From positions 124,001 to 188,000 of the forward strand of contig SYJQ01000028.1 of the NCBI GenBank assembly GCA_005798405.1: 64,000 nt of DNA, read 5' to 3'. Origin of the DNA: Nitrosopumilaceae archaeon. GTDB taxonomy: Archaea > Thermoproteota > Nitrososphaeria > Nitrososphaerales > Nitrosopumilaceae. A program made the position numbers and the translations under genes. Under the pieces are notes generated by a model. It ran no database searches and was not told where the DNA came from. It saw only the letters and a program-made list of their open reading frames with translations. Shown piece after piece: positions 11,863 to 31,239 of this stretch (the stretch's first letter is position 1; each line of letters starts with the position of its first letter).

Positions 11863-12378
11863 TTATTCTATTTCTGCAACTATATCGTTTTTAGCTACAG
11901 TTCCACCAATTTTGATTTTAATAGATTTGATTGAACCATTTTTATGAGATTTAACAGATACTTGCATTTTCATAGATTCTAAAGTACAGATAACATCTCC
12001 TTGTTTCACCGAGTCACCTTCTTGAACAGCGATAGAAACAACTTTACCGGGAATTTGACTTTTTAATGCCAGTTGAGTATCAGTCGAACTGCTACCTCCA
12101 GAATTTTTGAAAACAATTTTATCAAAATTAGTATGCATGTTAAGTGTAATAGGAACATTATCAATGATGAGATTCATTTCATTTGTTGAATTTTCAAGAT
12201 ATTTTGCTCTATGATATTTTTGATCTAATACAAATTCAATTCCTTTAGAATCCATTTTTAGAATTTTTATTTGATGTTTGTCAGAATTAATTTTAATTAC
12301 GTATTCATTGTTACCAAGATTTTCAGTTATTTCTCCATCAAATATTTTTTCAACATCTTTTATTTTATAATCCATCAA
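11863..12378 (-). CDS. Biotin carboxyl carrier protein of acyl-CoA carboxylase
   Basis: C-terminal biotinyl motif LESMKMQV. Confidence 0.92.
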   Translation of the reverse strand: MMDYKIKDVEKIFDGEITENLGNNEYVIKINSDKHQIKILKMDSKGIEFVLDQKYHRAKYLENSTNEMNLIIDNVPITLNMHTNFDKIVFKNSGGSSSTDTQLALKSQIPGKVVSIAVQEGDSVKQGDVICTLESMKMQVSVKSHKNGSIKSIKIKIGGTVAKNDIVAEIE

Positions 12379-12381
12379 TCA

Positions 12382-13878
12382 TCAATCCAGTTTATTTTTC
12401 CAATTTGAATTATTAGAAGTTGAATTTTGTACTCTACTCTTATAATATTCAGAATAAACAATAGCAGCTGCTAAAGCAGCCTCACTTTTTTCAATTTTTT
12501 CAGTTTTGAGATCTTCTTTTAATCTATCAATGATATTATAACGATTAAGGAAATCGGTAGAAAGATGTCCATTTTTGTATTCATCTGTATTCAAAATTGT
12601 TTTGTAAAGTGGTATTGATGTCTCGACACCTTGAATGTAAAAATCATTTAATGCGTTAAGCATTCTGGTTCTTGACTCCTCAAATGTCTGTCCCCATGTA
12701 CAAAGTTTGGCCATCAAAGAATCATAAAATGCAGATACAGTACATCCAGAATAAAGATAGGTATCACATCTAACACTTGGTCCAGATGGAATAGTAACAT
12801 CAGGTACAGGACCAGTCGAAGGAGCAAAATCCAAGAATGTATCTTCTGCGTTTATTCTGCATTCAATTGCATAGCCATTCATTTTGAGATCTTTTTGTTT
12901 GAATGGAAGGGGTTCACCATTTGCAATATCTATTTGTAGTTTAACGAGGTCAAGTCCCGATACAAGTTCGGTGATTGGATGTTCTACTTGCAATCTAGCA
13001 TTGATTTCTATAAAATAAAATTCACCGTTATCTGCTCGAAGAAATTCAGCAGTTCCAAGATTAGTATAATCAACTGCCTTAGATGCTTTAACAACCAATT
13101 CACCAATTCTGTCTCTTGTTTCTTGATCTACTATAGGAGATGGTGTTTGTTCAATAAGTTTTTGATTACGTCTTTGAATCGAACATTCTCTTTCAAATAT
13201 ATGAACTGCATTACCATGTTTGTCTCTTGCCATTTGATATTCAATATGTCTAGTTTTTTGTAGAAATTTTTCAACAATAATTGCAGATTTCCCAACCGCT
13301 GAAATGGATTCGCTTGTAACTGTTTCAAATCCTTCTCGTAGTTCTTTATCATTATTTACTAATCGAATTCCACGTCCACCGCCACCAAAAACAGATTTTA
13401 GTAGAACTGGGTATGAGATATCATTAGCAATTTTTAATGCATCTTCAACATCTTTTACTAGACCTGGACTTCCTGGCACAGTTGGAACTTTTGCTTTCAA
13501 CATAGCAGATTTACATTGCATTTTATCACCACAAAGATCCATAGATGCAGCACTGGGACCAATAAAATTTATTTTATTTTTTTCACATTTACCTGCAAAG
13601 TCTGAGTTTTCTGAAAGAAAACCATAACCAGGATGTATAGCATCGGCACCAGAAGAAAGTATAGTTTCAATAATTTTTTCTTGATTTAGATAAGATTTTG
13701 CAGGTGCAGCCTCACCAATATGATACGCTTCTGTAGCTTGTTTTACATGTAAAGAATTGTAATCTTCGTCAGAGTACACTGCAACAGTTTTGATTCCAAG
13801 CGCTTTGCATGTTTTAATAACACGTAAAGCGATTTCTCCTCTATTTGCGATAAGAACTTTTTCAATCATATTAATCAC
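12382..13878 (-). CDS. accC: Acetyl-/propionyl-CoA carboxylase, biotin carboxylase subunit
   Basis: KVLIANRGEIALRVI, GGGGRGIRLV, FIEINARLQVEHPITE. Confidence 0.95.
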   Translation of the reverse strand: MINMIEKVLIANRGEIALRVIKTCKALGIKTVAVYSDEDYNSLHVKQATEAYHIGEAAPAKSYLNQEKIIETILSSGADAIHPGYGFLSENSDFAGKCEKNKINFIGPSAASMDLCGDKMQCKSAMLKAKVPTVPGSPGLVKDVEDALKIANDISYPVLLKSVFGGGGRGIRLVNNDKELREGFETVTSESISAVGKSAIIVEKFLQKTRHIEYQMARDKHGNAVHIFERECSIQRRNQKLIEQTPSPIVDQETRDRIGELVVKASKAVDYTNLGTAEFLRADNGEFYFIEINARLQVEHPITELVSGLDLVKLQIDIANGEPLPFKQKDLKMNGYAIECRINAEDTFLDFAPSTGPVPDVTIPSGPSVRCDTYLYSGCTVSAFYDSLMAKLCTWGQTFEESRTRMLNALNDFYIQGVETSIPLYKTILNTDEYKNGHLSTDFLNRYNIIDRLKEDLKTEKIEKSEAALAAAIVYSEYYKSRVQNSTSNNSNWKNKLD

Positions 13879-15422
13879 AAATTGATATTTCCATGTTTTC
13901 TTGGAAGTTGTTTTTCTCTTTTGTTTGCAAGCATTTCTAATGCTTTTATCAACATAGGTCTTGTTTCAGCTGGATCAATTACATTATCAATAGTACCATG
14001 AGATGCAGCAACGTATGGGTTTTCAAATTTTTCTGAAAATTCACTGATTAATTGTTTTTTAAGAGATTCAGGATCATTGGAACTGGATAATTCCTTTCTA
14101 TACATAATTTTGACAGCTGCTTCAGCACCCAATACAGCACATCGTGCAGTTGGCCATGCATAATTTACATCAGTTCTTAGATTCTTACTTCCCATGGCTA
14201 TGTATGCACCGCCATATGCTTTTCCTATTACAAGTGTAATTCTAGGAACAGTAGCCTCACAGTAAGCATAGAGAAGTTTGCTACCATGTCTAATGATGCC
14301 ATTATGCTCTTGATTAGAACCTGGCATATATCCAGGAGTATCTACAAATGTAATGATCGGAATATTGAATGCGTCACAAAATCTAATGAATCTAGCTGCT
14401 TTGTTTGATGAATCAATATCAAGTGCACCGGCAAGATGAAGTGGTTGATTAGCAACAATGCCTACGACTTTGCCGTTTAATCTTCCATAACCTACAACTA
14501 CATTTGGTGCAAACAATTCATGAATCTCAAAAAATTCATGATTATCAACAACAGAGTGAATAATTTCTTTCATGTCGTATGGTTGTAAAGGATTATCAGG
14601 GATGATATTGATTATATTATGATCAAGTCTGTTTGGATCGTCATCAGTTTTTATTTTTGGTGGTTCTTCAGTATTATTTTGTGGAAGAAAAGAGATTAAT
14701 TTTTTTATATAATCCATACATTCGTATTCATTCTTTGCAACAAAATGTGCAACACCACTTTTTATTCCATGTGTCATTGCTCCACCTAAATCATCAAATG
14801 AAATTTCTTCTCCTAAAACAGTCTTTACTACATCAGGGCCAGTTACAAACATGGTTCCTGCTTTATCAACCATAATAACAAAATCAGTCATTGCTGGAGA
14901 ATATACAGAACCTCCAGCTGATGGACCGATACTTGCAGTAATTTGTGGAATAACACCAGAAGCTAATTGATTATGATAAAAAATATCAGCAAATCCATCA
15001 AGACTCATAATCCCTTCTTGAATTCTTGCACCGCCTGAATCCATTATACCAATTATAGGACAGCCTGTTTTGACTGCATGATCCATTAATTTTGTAATTT
15101 TTTTAGCTCCCATTTGACTTAGTGTTCCACCAAGTACAGTGAAGTCATAAGCAAAGACAAAGATTTGTCTACCATTTATGGATCCATAACCACCAACAAC
15201 ACCATCAGTATAGAATTTTTTTTTCTGCATATCATATTCATGATAATGATGAGTTGTAAGTGGATCAATTTCAGTAAAAGTGCCAACATCCAATAAAAGA
15301 TCAATTCTCTCTCTAGCTGTTAACTTACCTTTATCATGCTGATCCTTGATTTTATCTTGTCCTCCACCTTGTAAGGATATTTTATTTCTCTTAGAATATT
15401 CATCAATTTTTTCAAAATGCAT
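13875..15422 (-). CDS. pccB: Acetyl-/propionyl-CoA carboxylase, carboxyltransferase subunit
   Basis: GKLTARERIDLLLD, DSGGARIQEG, FVDTPGYMPGSNQEHNGIIRHGSKLLYAY. Confidence 0.95.
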   Translation of the reverse strand: MHFEKIDEYSKRNKISLQGGGQDKIKDQHDKGKLTARERIDLLLDVGTFTEIDPLTTHHYHEYDMQKKKFYTDGVVGGYGSINGRQIFVFAYDFTVLGGTLSQMGAKKITKLMDHAVKTGCPIIGIMDSGGARIQEGIMSLDGFADIFYHNQLASGVIPQITASIGPSAGGSVYSPAMTDFVIMVDKAGTMFVTGPDVVKTVLGEEISFDDLGGAMTHGIKSGVAHFVAKNEYECMDYIKKLISFLPQNNTEEPPKIKTDDDPNRLDHNIINIIPDNPLQPYDMKEIIHSVVDNHEFFEIHELFAPNVVVGYGRLNGKVVGIVANQPLHLAGALDIDSSNKAARFIRFCDAFNIPIITFVDTPGYMPGSNQEHNGIIRHGSKLLYAYCEATVPRITLVIGKAYGGAYIAMGSKNLRTDVNYAWPTARCAVLGAEAAVKIMYRKELSSSNDPESLKKQLISEFSEKFENPYVAASHGTIDNVIDPAETRPMLIKALEMLANKREKQLPRKHGNINL

Positions 15423-15548: not shown

Positions 15549-15866
15549 TTAAGAATTTAGATTTAAAAGGGGAAAATTCTTTTTTACGGATTTTTGATAT
15601 AAATTAAAAGGATTTTGCTCTTCACTGCACTTTTTGCATATACATAACTGAGAAACTCTTTGAATGTTACAATTATCTTGAAATTCACATTGTGAGCATC
15701 CAGCTGAACCTCTACAAACAATACACTGAAGTTCATTTATTTGTGCACATTTTTCATGTTTTACTCCTAATCCTTTTGACCACAATCCAATTTCATTTAC
15801 TTCAATTTTTTCATTACAAACAACACAAGTGCCTGGAAATTTCATTGGGATTTTTCTCCAACTCAT
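15549..15866 (-). CDS. Cys-rich small protein, probable zinc binding
   Basis: Repeated CxxC pairs (CVVC, CIVC, CSQC, CICKKC); 4-nt overlap with the RFC-L gene. Confidence 0.7.
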   Translation of the reverse strand: MSWRKIPMKFPGTCVVCNEKIEVNEIGLWSKGLGVKHEKCAQINELQCIVCRGSAGCSQCEFQDNCNIQRVSQLCICKKCSEEQNPFNLYQKSVKKNFPLLNLNS

Positions 15867-17029
15867 CTAATTGATTCAATCTCCTTTTCAAGAACATCAT
15901 CAAAAGTATCTAGTTCTAATTTTAATTTTTTATTTTTTATACAAAATAACACATATGGAAAACATATTGTGATAAATGCGCTGGATGAAAGATGTAAATT
16001 TTTAGCCATTATAGAAGATAATGTTTTTATTTTTTTTCCATCCCATCTAATACGATTTAGAAGTGGCCATGAAAGATTGTATTGTGCGTATCTTATTCGT
16101 TCATCTTTTGTATATAATCCAATTAAAATTTCATTTAGATAACGAAGTAATCGCCAATTTTGAGTTTTCATAATTCTTCCATAAAGTATGTCAGCTTCAG
16201 AAATAATTTCTAAAAATTTTGCAAGAGTGTCAATGTCTAAATTGCTGGTAATTATACTAGAGTAAAAAGCATCTATTTTTAATTTTGGATCAATTTGAAT
16301 AGAATACAAAACACTTCTAGCTTCATCAAGTGAATTTGCTTTAAAAAATGCGTTAATACCATCTTCTACATTTATGCTTTCAAATGATTTTTCAGTTTGA
16401 GGATTAAATCCAGTTACAAGAGATTGTGTCAAATTAATCATTGAACGAATATCACCTCTTGATCTATCAATTACTTTAATTATAGAACCAGGACTGAGTT
16501 TTGCATTTTCTTTTTGTAAAATATTTTCAAGATATATTTTCAAAAGGCGTGGAGGTAGTGGCTTAAAAAAGATAGTTTTAACAACTTTTTTGATACTTTT
16601 CATTTTATCTGAAATATCTGAATTTGCAGCTAATATGATAGGCACTGTAGGTTCTTTCAGAATTTCAATTAATGCTTCGGCACCACCATAATCCCCCCTA
16701 CCATGAATTCCATCTACCTCATCTATGAAAATCATTGGCATTCCCATTACACTGACATTGCTCAATACAGGTGAGAGAATTTCATTAATTCTAGATTTAC
16801 TTCGCACGTCACTTGCATTCAATCCAATCATATCATATCCAAATTGTTTTGCAGAAAGATATGCAATTGTTGTCTTTCCAATTCCAGGCGGGCCAACTAA
16901 TAGAATTGGTTTTGTACCTTTTTTCCATTTTGTGAACCACTCAATTATGAAAGATCTAGATTCTTCATTACCAATCATGTCAGAAATATTCTGAGGCCTA
17001 TATTTTTCGGACCACATCAAGTTAATCAC
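15863..17029 (-). CDS. rfcL: Replication factor C large subunit
   Basis: MWSEKYRPQNISDMIGN, Walker A GPPGIGKTT, Walker B IFIDEVDG. Confidence 0.93.
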   Translation of the reverse strand: MINLMWSEKYRPQNISDMIGNEESRSFIIEWFTKWKKGTKPILLVGPPGIGKTTIAYLSAKQFGYDMIGLNASDVRSKSRINEILSPVLSNVSVMGMPMIFIDEVDGIHGRGDYGGAEALIEILKEPTVPIILAANSDISDKMKSIKKVVKTIFFKPLPPRLLKIYLENILQKENAKLSPGSIIKVIDRSRGDIRSMINLTQSLVTGFNPQTEKSFESINVEDGINAFFKANSLDEARSVLYSIQIDPKLKIDAFYSSIITSNLDIDTLAKFLEIISEADILYGRIMKTQNWRLLRYLNEILIGLYTKDERIRYAQYNLSWPLLNRIRWDGKKIKTLSSIMAKNLHLSSSAFITICFPYVLFCIKNKKLKLELDTFDDVLEKEIESIR

Positions 17030-18141
17030 TTAGGGAGTTTAGATTCAAACTCTGACCATTTGTTTGCTTTTTGTAATTGATTATACCAATATTGATTGTA
17101 GTGTTCAACTGTCAAAAATAAAAACTCTAAAAATTCAGTATGTGAAAATTCTTCAGGTAGTAATTTAAGTGCTAAACGAGCATCTTGAAGATATAAATTA
17201 CTTTTTTCTAATGTTAATTCAAATCCCTTTTTGACATCATTTGATAATAAAGTGTAATACAATGGCCATGACGGAATTTTTACAAATCCATTTTTGATCG
17301 AGTCTTCAATTTCATTTCCACATCCAACACCTTCAGCAGCTCTTGCCATTCCAAGATAGAAAATTTCTCCGAGTGGTCTTTCTGCCAGAGCCATATTTCT
17401 TCCAGCAGTTCCCATCACAGATCGGTATTTTTTGTAAGACAAATTCATTTCTTCTTCTGTAATCTTGGTGGGTTTTGATTTTAATTTTTCATCAAGATAT
17501 TGACCTATTCTAGCATCCTTGAATCCTTCTTCAAATTCTTTTAGAACCTCAGGTCCACCTTTAGAAATTTTATCTCGAGCTAATTTCAAAATATACGGAT
17601 TCATTAGTTTGTAATCATCAAGATATTCCAAGTCTTCATCTTTGTCAACAATTCTATCCATTGGTTCACTAAGATCAATTGCTAAAATATGACCTTCAAC
17701 AATATCTTGTCTTAATTGAGGATCTTTTTTTCCAGTATAATTAGAGGCTCCATCAAATAACGCATTAAATACAGGAAAAGTCATTTTTACAAAATTTGAA
17801 TTTAAAATACGCAGTACTCTATCTTTGATTACATCCGGACTTTCTAATTTTGATTTAATATGATCAATTTCAGAGGCTTGAAGAATGATTTCAGTAGAGC
17901 CTACTTCATTTCCAAATGCTTGTTGTGTTGAGTTTGGAGAAAGATCAGACTTAATTTCATGTAAAAGATCTCTTGCAAATCTATCTGCAAAATTTGGAAA
18001 TTCATTTTCTGTTTCTTCTTTGTATTGAGTAAATAATTTGTAACCTTTAGATTTGAATAATCCTTGTTTCATAATTTGTTTTCCAGGTTTTGTACTCATC
18101 AAAGATTCTTTGCTTATAACAGATTGATCTTTTCCACTCAC
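17026..18141 (-). CDS. Protein of unknown function in RFC-L operon
   Basis: 371-aa ORF overlapping the RFC-L start by 4 nt; no recognised motif. Confidence 0.75.
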   Translation of the reverse strand: MSGKDQSVISKESLMSTKPGKQIMKQGLFKSKGYKLFTQYKEETENEFPNFADRFARDLLHEIKSDLSPNSTQQAFGNEVGSTEIILQASEIDHIKSKLESPDVIKDRVLRILNSNFVKMTFPVFNALFDGASNYTGKKDPQLRQDIVEGHILAIDLSEPMDRIVDKDEDLEYLDDYKLMNPYILKLARDKISKGGPEVLKEFEEGFKDARIGQYLDEKLKSKPTKITEEEMNLSYKKYRSVMGTAGRNMALAERPLGEIFYLGMARAAEGVGCGNEIEDSIKNGFVKIPSWPLYYTLLSNDVKKGFELTLEKSNLYLQDARLALKLLPEEFSHTEFLEFLFLTVEHYNQYWYNQLQKANKWSEFESKLPK

Positions 18142-19117: not shown

Positions 19118-19957
19118 CTATCCGTATGATTCATACTTAATTTCGTAACTTCCATCTTTACGTTTTTCTTCTTTTGTAACAAATCCTTTTGGTCCTAAAT
19201 ATTCAATAACTCCATCAATAGTACCTTGGTATCCGCAAATGTAGACTTTGGTATTTGCAGTTGTAACTGTTTCACCAACCATTTCTTCTAATGGTGAGAC
19301 ACCATTTTTGTTTGGTTTGAAGAAGGATTCAACTCTGCCTACATGTCCTGACCAAGTTCTGTTAAAGAATTCCTTGGGTCTGCTAATAGCTGCCCTATAT
19401 TTGAAATTCCATTGATCTTTTCCTCTCTCAATACTTTCATTCTCCAAGTTTGTTAGCAATTCTTTGTAGCTTAATTCATCAACATAACTTGCACCATGAA
19501 AAACAATGATTTCTCTTTTATCTCCAGTATCGTGTAAATGTTTAGCAAAAGCGATAAATGGTGCAAGACCGGTTCCACCTCCTACACAAACAATTCTTCT
19601 ATTATCAGGTTGACCGTTTGGTAATTTATCATCGATTAGTAAAGCATTACCAGTAGGATCTCCCAAGTATACCTCATCACCAACATTTGCATAAAATAAT
19701 TCAGTTGTAACACGACCGGGCAAAGGCTTTCTAACCCATCTAATTACAAATTCAAAATAATCTCGATTTTCAGGATGTGATGCAATTGAGTATGCTCTTC
19801 GAACAACCTTTTGTTCAGATGGTATTGGTACTCCTATAGTAAGAAATTGACCTGTAGTGTATTTTGGCATACCGTCATTTGGAACTAACCGAATTACAAC
19901 TAGATCTTCTTTAAGTAATTGCATGTAAGTAATTTTTGCCTTATGTTCTACTACCAT
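19118..19957 (-). CDS. Ferredoxin-NADP reductase-like FAD/NAD(P) oxidoreductase
   Basis: RRAYSIASHP (FAD), GGGTGLAPFIAF (NAD); paralogue of 30394..31239. Confidence 0.88.
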   Translation of the reverse strand: MVVEHKAKITYMQLLKEDLVVIRLVPNDGMPKYTTGQFLTIGVPIPSEQKVVRRAYSIASHPENRDYFEFVIRWVRKPLPGRVTTELFYANVGDEVYLGDPTGNALLIDDKLPNGQPDNRRIVCVGGGTGLAPFIAFAKHLHDTGDKREIIVFHGASYVDELSYKELLTNLENESIERGKDQWNFKYRAAISRPKEFFNRTWSGHVGRVESFFKPNKNGVSPLEEMVGETVTTANTKVYICGYQGTIDGVIEYLGPKGFVTKEEKRKDGSYEIKYESYG

Positions 19958-20400: not shown

Positions 20401-21477
20401 TTAGATGTAAATTCGTTTCATTGTTTCTGCAAGGATTGGAACTTCTTTTTCGATTATTTTTTCTACAGCAGGAACTATACCAGATCTGGCTTTTACGTTT
20501 TCTTCATATATCTCAGCAATTTGATCTCTAAACAATAATTTAATCCCTGGAAGTGCAGTTATTCCCTCATCGACTGTTCGTGGATCAGATAAATCTAAAA
20601 TTAATGTGCCTTTCTTCTTTTCTTCCATAACCAATTTTATTCTATCAAAAGTGATCAAGAAATAATCAGATGTGGTCGCAACAAAGATAATATCGTATTT
20701 ATCAAATCCAGCCAAAACTTCTTCAAATGCAATTGCTTTTCCACCCAATATTTTAGAAAATCCAGTCGAACGCTCAATAGTTTTACTTGTGACATCAAAT
20801 GTGAATCCTTTTTTATTAAGAGTTTTAGCAACCATAGCTGCAGGTTCGCCTGTACCTATTAACAAAATACGTTTCTTAGCGTCCAAACCTGCTTTTTCAT
20901 CTACAATTTTAACAGAGACATCTCCAAGAGAAATTACATCTTTGCTAATTCCAGTCGTATCTCTGATACGAGTCGCAATTCGTATTACGCTTTCAAATAG
21001 TTTATTCAAAACTACTCCAGACACGTTAATCTGTTTTGCATGAGAAAGGGCTGCCTTAATCTCATTCAATATTTCTTCTTTTCCTACAACAACTGAATCC
21101 AAACCACATGCTAATCTCAAAAGATTAAGATAAACATCTGTACTTTTGTAAACTTCAAGAGTTTGATCAAAGTGATCAATATCAATTTGTTCTAGTTCTG
21201 ATAGAGACTGCCAAGTTTCTTTTATTTGGTTTAAAACAAGAGATTTTCCTTCCGTTGTTCTCCCATCTGGAGTATCTCCCGTTTCCAAGTTACTCACTGT
21301 AAATATTTCAATTCTGCTAGAAGTCTGAATTATAATGCATTCTGCAACACCTGGAATTTTCTTAAATGTTTCACATGCGACTTTCAGATCTTTAAATCTA
21401 AATCGTGATAATGTGTAAAGTGGTACATTTTTAAAAGTAACTCTTGCATTAATTACATCAAAATTAATTTCGTTCAC
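20401..21477 (-). CDS. hemA: Glutamyl-tRNA reductase family protein (catalytic Cys replaced)
   Basis: HemA-like length and domain order, GxGEPAAMVAKTL Rossmann motif, DLSDPRTVD; TCNR-equivalent motif reads TSSR. Confidence 0.78.
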   Translation of the reverse strand: MNEINFDVINARVTFKNVPLYTLSRFRFKDLKVACETFKKIPGVAECIIIQTSSRIEIFTVSNLETGDTPDGRTTEGKSLVLNQIKETWQSLSELEQIDIDHFDQTLEVYKSTDVYLNLLRLACGLDSVVVGKEEILNEIKAALSHAKQINVSGVVLNKLFESVIRIATRIRDTTGISKDVISLGDVSVKIVDEKAGLDAKKRILLIGTGEPAAMVAKTLNKKGFTFDVTSKTIERSTGFSKILGGKAIAFEEVLAGFDKYDIIFVATTSDYFLITFDRIKLVMEEKKKGTLILDLSDPRTVDEGITALPGIKLLFRDQIAEIYEENVKARSGIVPAVEKIIEKEVPILAETMKRIYI

Positions 21478-21488
21478 ATCATCACCAT

Positions 21489-22166
21489 TTATTCTCTAAG
21501 TTTATTCCTTCCACCTTTAGCAGTACGGAAAACATTCATACCAATGTAATAATTCTCATAAATTGATTCTAAATATTCAAGTTCTTGTTGTGTTGTGAGT
21601 ATATCCTTTTTAGATGCATGAGGATCATTTTTTAATTTCTTTAATTTTTGTTTGGTTTCTTCTAAAAAGTTTCCTACTCCAGATTCATAATTAGACATAC
21701 CACCAAATTCTGGACTTAGTACATGTTGTGGAATATATTTTGGAGTGTTATCTGTTGGAATTTCCACTTTTCTTGTAAGTTCATCTTGTTCGTCGGATGA
21801 AAGAACAGGTCTTGGAAATCTATCTTTTTTGGCTAAGAAAAATTCAGGCTCTCCCATTTCTCTTCTAAATATTTCTTCACCCTTGCGTTGATTAGTAAAT
21901 GCTGGTGCTTTAGTTGCTGCAGCTTTAACTTCTGCAGCTATTGCTTTGTATTCCTCTTCTGCAGCTGCTTCTGCTACGGCCTTGGCAGCGGCAGCTTTTG
22001 CTAATGCAGCTTCTACTTCAGCTTCTGCCTGAGACACTGCTGCAGCAGCTTTTGCCGCTGCTTCTATTTTTGCTGCGGCAGCTTTTACTACATCTTTTGG
22101 TGTAGATTCGGATGCTGAAATTTCAGATGTTGTCTCTACCTTAGATTCTTGGTTCTCTTCAGACAT
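21489..22166 (-). CDS. Ala/Glu/Lys-rich coiled-coil protein of unknown function
   Basis: 225-aa ORF with long Ala-rich heptad-like segment, 11 nt upstream of the hemA homologue. Confidence 0.7.
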   Translation of the reverse strand: MSEENQESKVETTSEISASESTPKDVVKAAAAKIEAAAKAAAAVSQAEAEVEAALAKAAAAKAVAEAAAEEEYKAIAAEVKAAATKAPAFTNQRKGEEIFRREMGEPEFFLAKKDRFPRPVLSSDEQDELTRKVEIPTDNTPKYIPQHVLSPEFGGMSNYESGVGNFLEETKQKLKKLKNDPHASKKDILTTQQELEYLESIYENYYIGMNVFRTAKGGRNKLRE

Positions 22167-30393: not shown

Positions 30394-31239
30394 ATGGTAG
30401 TAGATAACAAAGCAACTATCACGTATGTACAGTTACTAAAAGAAGATCTTGTAATTATCAGATTAGTACCAAAAGATGGTCCAGTTCCAGAATATCAAGC
30501 GGGTCAGTTTATCACATTAGGATTACCAAATCCTGTAGAAGGTGGAAAAATTGTTAGAAGAGCATATTCAATTGCCTCTCATCCTGAAAACAGAAAATAT
30601 GTTGAGCTTGTGATTAGATGGGTAAGAAAACCACTGCCAGGTAGATTGACCACACAGATATTCAATGCAAAAGAAAATGATGAGATTTTATGGTTAAAAC
30701 CTACAGGTAGAGCACTTTTGATAAATGAGACGCTTCCGAATGGAGAAAAAGATAACAGGAGAATTATTTGTATTGGGGGAGGAACAGGTCTCGCACCGTT
30801 TGTCAGTTTTGCACAACATCTGCATGATACCGGAGATAAGCGAGAAATTATTGTTCTTCATGGTGCAAGTTATGTTGATGAATTAAGTTACAAAGAATTG
30901 CTAACAGATTTAGAAAATGAAAGTAGAGCAAGAGGAAAAGATCAATGGAATTTCAAATACAGAGCAGCTATCAGTAGACCACAGGAATGGTTCAACAGAT
31001 CGTGGTCAGGTCAGGTTGGAAGAGTTGAAACATTTCTTAGACCTAGAGATAATGGAATTTCACCATTAGAAGAGTTGATTGGGGATAAAATCACCAAAGA
31101 AAATACAATGTTTTATGTTTGTGGTTGGCAAGGAACAATTGATGGTGTAATGGATTTCTTAAAACCAAAAGGTTTCGTTACAGAACATGATAAGCGTTCA
31201 GATGGAAGTTTTGAAGTAAAATACGAATCTTACGGATAA
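30394..31239 (+). CDS. Ferredoxin-NADP reductase-like FAD/NAD(P) oxidoreductase (paralogue)
   Basis: RRAYSIASHP, GGGTGLAPFVSF; co-linear with 19118..19957. Confidence 0.88.
   Translation: MVVDNKATITYVQLLKEDLVIIRLVPKDGPVPEYQAGQFITLGLPNPVEGGKIVRRAYSIASHPENRKYVELVIRWVRKPLPGRLTTQIFNAKENDEILWLKPTGRALLINETLPNGEKDNRRIICIGGGTGLAPFVSFAQHLHDTGDKREIIVLHGASYVDELSYKELLTDLENESRARGKDQWNFKYRAAISRPQEWFNRSWSGQVGRVETFLRPRDNGISPLEELIGDKITKENTMFYVCGWQGTIDGVMDFLKPKGFVTEHDKRSDGSFEVKYESYG

Follow-up and report, generated by a model that had tools for sequence, protein, structure and literature searches.

A cysteine-less glutamyl-tRNA reductase paralogue of Nitrosopumilaceae, its constant gene partner and their putative link to acyl-CoA carboxylase

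Gene content of the locus

The window (the whole analysed stretch of 64,000 nucleotides from a Nitrosopumilaceae archaeon) encodes a homologue of glutamyl-tRNA reductase (GluTR, HemA), which was given the name GTRL in this analysis (Table 1). Its minus-strand codons ATT CAG ACT TCT AGC AGA ATT GAA, read from 21330 down to 21307, translate to I-Q-T-S-S-R-I-E, and the replacement of both Cys and Asn of the Q-T-C-N-R motif by Ser, as described in the initial annotation, is borne out exactly by these codons. The HemA fold signature and the NADP domain, which were likewise said to persist around the motif, are recovered by the Pfam matches to GlutR_N (1.9e-28) and to the Shikimate_DH/Rossmann family PF01488 (4e-19), and the dimerisation domain GlutR_dimer (PF00745) gave no match in the window GTRL in the Pfam search. 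The score against TIGR01035 is 195 bits, below the hemA equivalog cut-off of 209.55 bits. The AlphaFold model of GTRL has a pLDDT of 90.6, and Foldseek with this model retrieved GluTR structures first, with 1gpj as the best PDB match (2e-24, TM-score 0.49); such a low TM-score would follow if the two proteins, as members of a V-shaped, elongated family, differed in the angle between their domains.

Hem genes are not adjacent to GTRL in the window, in agreement with the initial annotation. The neighbouring SDH and argH genes were set aside as incidental, their adjacency to GTRL not being conserved across genera. A conserved 371-aa protein adjoining rfcL (17026-18141) has no Pfam match, and a conserved Cys-rich protein of 105 aa (15549-15866), found in the rfcL-carboxyltransferase interval of nearly all ammonia oxidisers examined, matched no family above its cut-off.

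Table 1. Coordinates and main properties of the features considered (positions are those of the window, except for the canonical HemA).
Feature	Position	Strand	Remarks
Biotin carboxyl carrier protein	11863..12378	-	
Biotin carboxylase subunit	12382..13878	-	
Carboxyltransferase subunit, acyl-CoA (acetyl/propionyl-CoA) carboxylase	13875..15422	-	5 kb downstream of GTRL
Ferredoxin/flavin-reductase-like flavoprotein (FNR)	19118..19957	-	FAD_binding_6 + NAD_binding_1; adjoins GTRL in most loci, orientation varies
GTRL (Cys-less GluTR-fold paralogue)	20401..21477	-	358 aa, GTG start; GlutR_N + NAD(P)-binding Rossmann, without dimerisation domain
T-S-S-R in place of canonical HemA T-C-N-R	21313..21324	-	GTRL residues 52-55
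X	21489..22166	-	225 aa, 11 nt upstream of GTRL, no known family
X segment, residues 88-118, includes IFRREMGEPEFF	21813..21905	-	found only in GTRL-carrying genomes
Canonical HemA	L033 5112..6383	-	423 aa, all three domains, TIGR01035 341 bits

The canonical HemA and the origin of the second copy

A search for a second HemA with T-C-N-R, which had been proposed as a check, succeeded: the window's own genome contains on contig C18 another GlutR_N gene, coding for 423 aa with QTCNRIE and lying beside hemB, Met8-like and AhbA/B-like genes (names read from the translations). Because this canonical enzyme is present, the synthesis of tetrapyrroles and ALA need not rest on GTRL, which, judged from sequence, is not the GluTR of this organism. 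In a survey of haem genes in archaea from 2010, Nmar_0510 was the only hemA given for N. maritimus (PMC3004389).

Two GlutR_N genes per genome were found, among the 251 genomes of the class surveyed, only in the window's family. Of the 63 sequences in a maximum-likelihood tree, 37 are paralogues; they group in a single clade (support 100/100) that is nested among the family's canonical HemAs, which points to a single duplication of HemA inside Nitrosopumilaceae, probably after the first branches of the family had split. The closest relatives of GTRL in a named search came from Nitrosarchaeum, then from Nitrosopumilus, Nitrosopelagicus and others; except where the names of such relatives are known, genera are given here by codes. 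Only the canonical copy, or none, was detected in the genera g4, g5, g7, g8, g13, g15, g17 and g19 and in some g2 species (among them G025, G028, G056 and G071), and GTRL is also absent from all of f2/f3. GTRL is an old second copy that most marine and freshwater ammonia-oxidising archaea have in addition to their normal HemA.

Residue replacements and selection

The residue counts were made on 63 distinct paralogue sequences aligned with 48 canonical ones. Cys-Asn occupies positions 53-54 in 48/48 canonical sequences, and position 53 in the paralogues holds Ala (42), Ser (12), Gln (3) or, once each, His, Asn, Thr, Pro, Lys and Gly, with Cys in 0/63 and about 13 changes on the tree; at position 54, Ser (54), Phe (5) and Thr (4) replace the Asn of all canonical sequences. 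A sequencing error at the Cys codon (21319..21321), one of the outcomes that would have overturned the initial reading, is ruled out, since these sequences from 13-14 genera are without Cys at that place in every case. A replacement catalytic Cys elsewhere in the protein is ruled out as well, since C47 is common to canonical HemA, and C35 and C124 are variable. By sequence, the Cys-Asn pair is permanently lost in GTRL. A residue that wanders as position 53 does is not a new nucleophile, and the proposal that Ser53 replaces Cys, with GTRL still acting as a GluTR, can be given very little credence: Ser does stand there in the window GTRL and in 11 other paralogues, but Ala is the commonest residue, Gln, His, Pro, Lys and Gly also occur, Asn54 and His118 are replaced, and a canonical GluTR is present in the genome. 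According to the literature (PMC3778395), all GluTRs show strong conservation of this Cys; this agrees with GTRL being something else and tells against a Ser nucleophile.

The equivalent of M. kandleri His84, position 118, is His in 48/48 canonical sequences and His in 36/63, Asn in 22/63 and other residues in 5/63 of the paralogues, the window GTRL having N118. Q51, R55 and E57 of the Q-T...R-x-E frame are kept in 63/63 paralogues, R55 being the equivalent of M. kandleri Arg50. D271 is found in 63/63 paralogues, where 48/48 canonical sequences have Pro; position 186 is Asp or Glu in 61/63 paralogues and Ser in all the canonicals; H102, D104 and Q105 are newly fixed and invariant; and an extra loop of about 20 residues carries the invariant D71 and R73. 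The placing of the switched residues in the pocket comes from the alignment and secondary structure. All the paralogues keep the nucleotide loop G208-x-G210 and R236, and the retained Rossmann fold (PF01488, GxG, R236) predicts that NAD(P) would be bound. Position 232, at which the family would be expected to recognise the 2'-phosphate of NADPH, is Arg or Lys in 41/63 paralogues and Met, Gln or Leu in 22/63, in some of which cofactor binding may accordingly have been lost.

The catalytic residues and one domain are gone from the window GTRL, as would be expected of a decaying functionless duplicate. Such decay is nevertheless scarcely credible, and it is refuted for most lineages by the selection data: the pairwise dN/dS of the paralogues is 0.02-0.09 in 12/13 pairs (0.33 in the remaining one), similar to the 0.04-0.07 of canonical HemA, these being Nei-Gojobori counts that are rough where pairs come near synonymous saturation. 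The gene is also kept across about 14 genera, with new residues fixed and its operon with X unbroken. Loss of the catalytic residue, retention of the fold, purifying selection and a canonical enzyme elsewhere in the genome together fit, at the level of sequence, a pseudoenzyme or repurposed paralogue.

Among the three explanations offered in the initial annotation, a non-canonical paralogue with a different role is well supported by the second HemA beside hemB and by the separate paralogue clade. The two others, in which Ser serves or the lineage uses another mechanism, are disfavoured, the former by the counts at position 53 and the latter by the canonical GluTR, which makes ALA synthesis independent of GTRL.

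Canonical HemA and some of the paralogues have the dimerisation domain PF00745, which is absent from the window GTRL and from that of Nitrosopumilus; it was lost at least 4 times among the paralogues, the window GTRL included. A full-length Cys-less paralogue with this domain (L080 8119-9384) scores 235 bits against TIGR01035, above the cut-off; such full-length paralogues will be annotated as GluTR, and pipelines can then call two GluTRs where one exists.

The constant partner X

Among 40 GTRL loci from 13 genera, X lies upstream of GTRL on the same strand in 39/39 loci with the upstream side on the contig, mostly with gaps of 0-19 nt, and the neighbourhood beyond X is not constant. The protein consists of an Ala/Lys/Glu-rich helix, the IFRREMGEPEFF segment and, at its C-terminus, a conserved helical hairpin (GMNVFRTAKGGR). 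Neither Pfam nor NCBIfam gave a match for X, and its predicted structure, a low-confidence and mostly helical model, gave no fold match; X as a known carboxylase subunit was rejected on the lack of a Pfam match and of a fold match for this model.

The segment of residues 88-118 is present in 113/171 genomes of the family, and GTRL is found in 113/113 of these, complete or as contig-end fragments (Fisher p about 1e-37 before the fragments were counted, a value overstated by the relatedness of the genomes). Two genomes, G266 and G308, have a near-complete GTRL and no match to the segment, GTRL being cut there at the contig end on the side of X. The C-terminal part of X has a wider distribution and occurs in 32/62 genera, a set identical, when compared by genus code, to that of the genera with archaeal amoA. 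This small helical domain of about 90 aa, which has the motif GMNVFRTAKGGR and is encoded beside the carboxylase, may be a signature protein of the ammonia-oxidising archaea.

This constancy of X also bears on a possible regulation of haem synthesis by GTRL, which would form a heterodimer with HemA or bind tRNA-Glu or GSA aminomutase and so damp the formation of ALA. The descent of GTRL from HemA, the identity of about one half, the retained fold and the preservation of some glutamate-site residues speak for such a role; but the domain by which GluTR pairs was repeatedly lost while the gene was retained, and no haem gene was seen as a neighbour of GTRL, whose constant partner is X. No genomic evidence favours a role in haem regulation, which we regard as improbable.

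The genomic link to acetyl-/propionyl-CoA carboxylase

In the ammonia oxidisers without GTRL, a short X (70-193 aa) directly precedes the carboxyltransferase gene, which is followed by the genes of biotin carboxylase and the biotin carrier. In g10, g11, g12 and g16 the genes run rfcL-Zn105-X-GTRL-FNR-carboxyltransferase, again followed by biotin carboxylase and carrier, and GTRL is 1.0-1.7 kb away from the carboxyltransferase gene. The X-GTRL block of Nitrosarchaeum, Nitrosopumilus, g3 and a part of g9 stands about 5 kb upstream of the carboxylase, where no X is left. The g2 species have two copies of X, a short one at the carboxylase and a long one with GTRL elsewhere, away from the carboxylase genes. 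These gene orders place the origin of X in the acetyl-/propionyl-CoA carboxylase operon of ammonia-oxidising archaea, and the simplest history would be an insertion of the HemA duplicate between X and the carboxyltransferase gene, after which X became its partner.

The FNR-like neighbour was considered as a specific partner of GTRL and rejected, as it is near most GTRL loci but universal in ammonia oxidisers. This ferredoxin/flavin-reductase-like family is confined to 32/62 genera (those with amoA) and is often duplicated in the GTRL genomes; in the window a paralogue about 72% identical to the FNR of Table 1 lies at 30394-31236.

Proposed role

Its sequence shows GTRL to be a repurposed copy of a known enzyme, and its partner in the genome is unusual. 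That it also binds a nucleotide, has no GluTR function and, as the partner of X, acts on or close to the acetyl-/propionyl-CoA carboxylase is a reading to which we give an even chance. In its separate parts, a physical complex of GTRL and X is probable, the contact candidates being the IFRREMGEPEFF segment of X and the GTRL loop at about residues 62-80, and an action on the carboxylase falls somewhat short of even chances. The carboxylase of ammonia oxidisers would have in X a small accessory protein, since the ancestral X gene is the immediate upstream neighbour of the carboxyltransferase gene. GTRL, keeping an NAD(P)-binding Rossmann fold with GxG and R236 and working without covalent thioester chemistry, would then most likely tune the carboxylase, the CO2-fixing step, via X in response to a nicotinamide nucleotide or another ligand of the remodelled pocket. 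A regulator is more likely than an enzyme, and nucleotide-dependent regulation would be preferred over catalysis. Against a role at the carboxylase stand the g2 species, in which the X-GTRL pair is apart from it, and the unlikeness of X to known carboxylase subunits; the gene neighbourhood that ties X, GTRL and the carboxylase indicates association, not mechanism.

GluTR uses NADPH to reduce an acyl ester to a semialdehyde, a chemistry that resembles the reduction of acyl-CoA, and GTRL is located between X and the carboxylase genes making malonyl-CoA. GTRL could on this ground be a Cys-free malonyl-/succinyl-CoA reductase of the HP/HB cycle; as of 2018 the genes for these reductases had yet to be found in N. 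maritimus, although the activities were measured (PMC6038301). The pocket residues conserved in a new pattern and the invariant Arg55 agree with this reading. However, GTRL is absent from several ammonia-oxidising genera and from the four g2 species named above, which must run the cycle; it is not present in every organism running the cycle, and this patchy distribution argues against GTRL as the sole such reductase, although a lineage-specific substitute may be conceived. The new pocket residues are acidic and so unfavourable for dicarboxylate substrates, and the free drift of residues 53 and 118 is unusual for an active site. The reductase reading is therefore considered improbable, and the broader statement that a GluTR, by losing its catalytic Cys and being captured into the carboxylase operon, was turned into a part of CO2 fixation, whether as a carboxylase subunit that senses nucleotides or as such a reductase, is still rather doubtful; if true, a GluTR would have given rise to one enzyme missing from the N. 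maritimus cycle or to a carboxylase sensor.

Nitrosopumilaceae are among the most abundant cells of the ocean and fix CO2 through the carboxylase. In the PMC open subset, no description was found of GTRL or of the accessory parts and regulation of the ammonia-oxidiser carboxylase, nor any mention of Nmar_0265 to 0269 (the guessed N. maritimus tags of X and GTRL), 0264 and 0272-0274. The X-GTRL pair, as a conserved two-gene unit tied to the carboxylase operon, is a concrete and testable candidate for an accessory or regulatory part.

Comparison with known systems

GTRL shares with GluTR (HemA/GtrR; PF05201, PF01488 and PF00745; TIGR01035; 1gpj of Methanopyrus kandleri) the N-terminal catalytic fold and the NAD(P)-binding domain, the start of the spinal helix, the Q-T-x-x-R-x-E frame and the GxGE nucleotide loop. 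Unlike GluTR, it has an insertion of about 20 residues, the invariant D271, D71, R73, H102, D104 and Q105 and a location outside any haem cluster, and the window GTRL is without the Cys, the Asn and the dimerisation domain, with the active-site His changed to Asn and a hemA score under the cut-off. The canonical HemA of the same genome is a sister protein, about half identical, and differs from GTRL by its QTCNRIE motif, His, dimerisation domain, haem-gene neighbours and TIGR01035 score (341 vs 195 bits). The small accessory subunits of acyl-CoA carboxylases, such as the actinobacterial epsilon AccE/PccE and the haloarchaeal PccX, offer a tentative comparison for X, being short and encoded beside the carboxyltransferase gene, as is X; no sequence or fold match was found for X.
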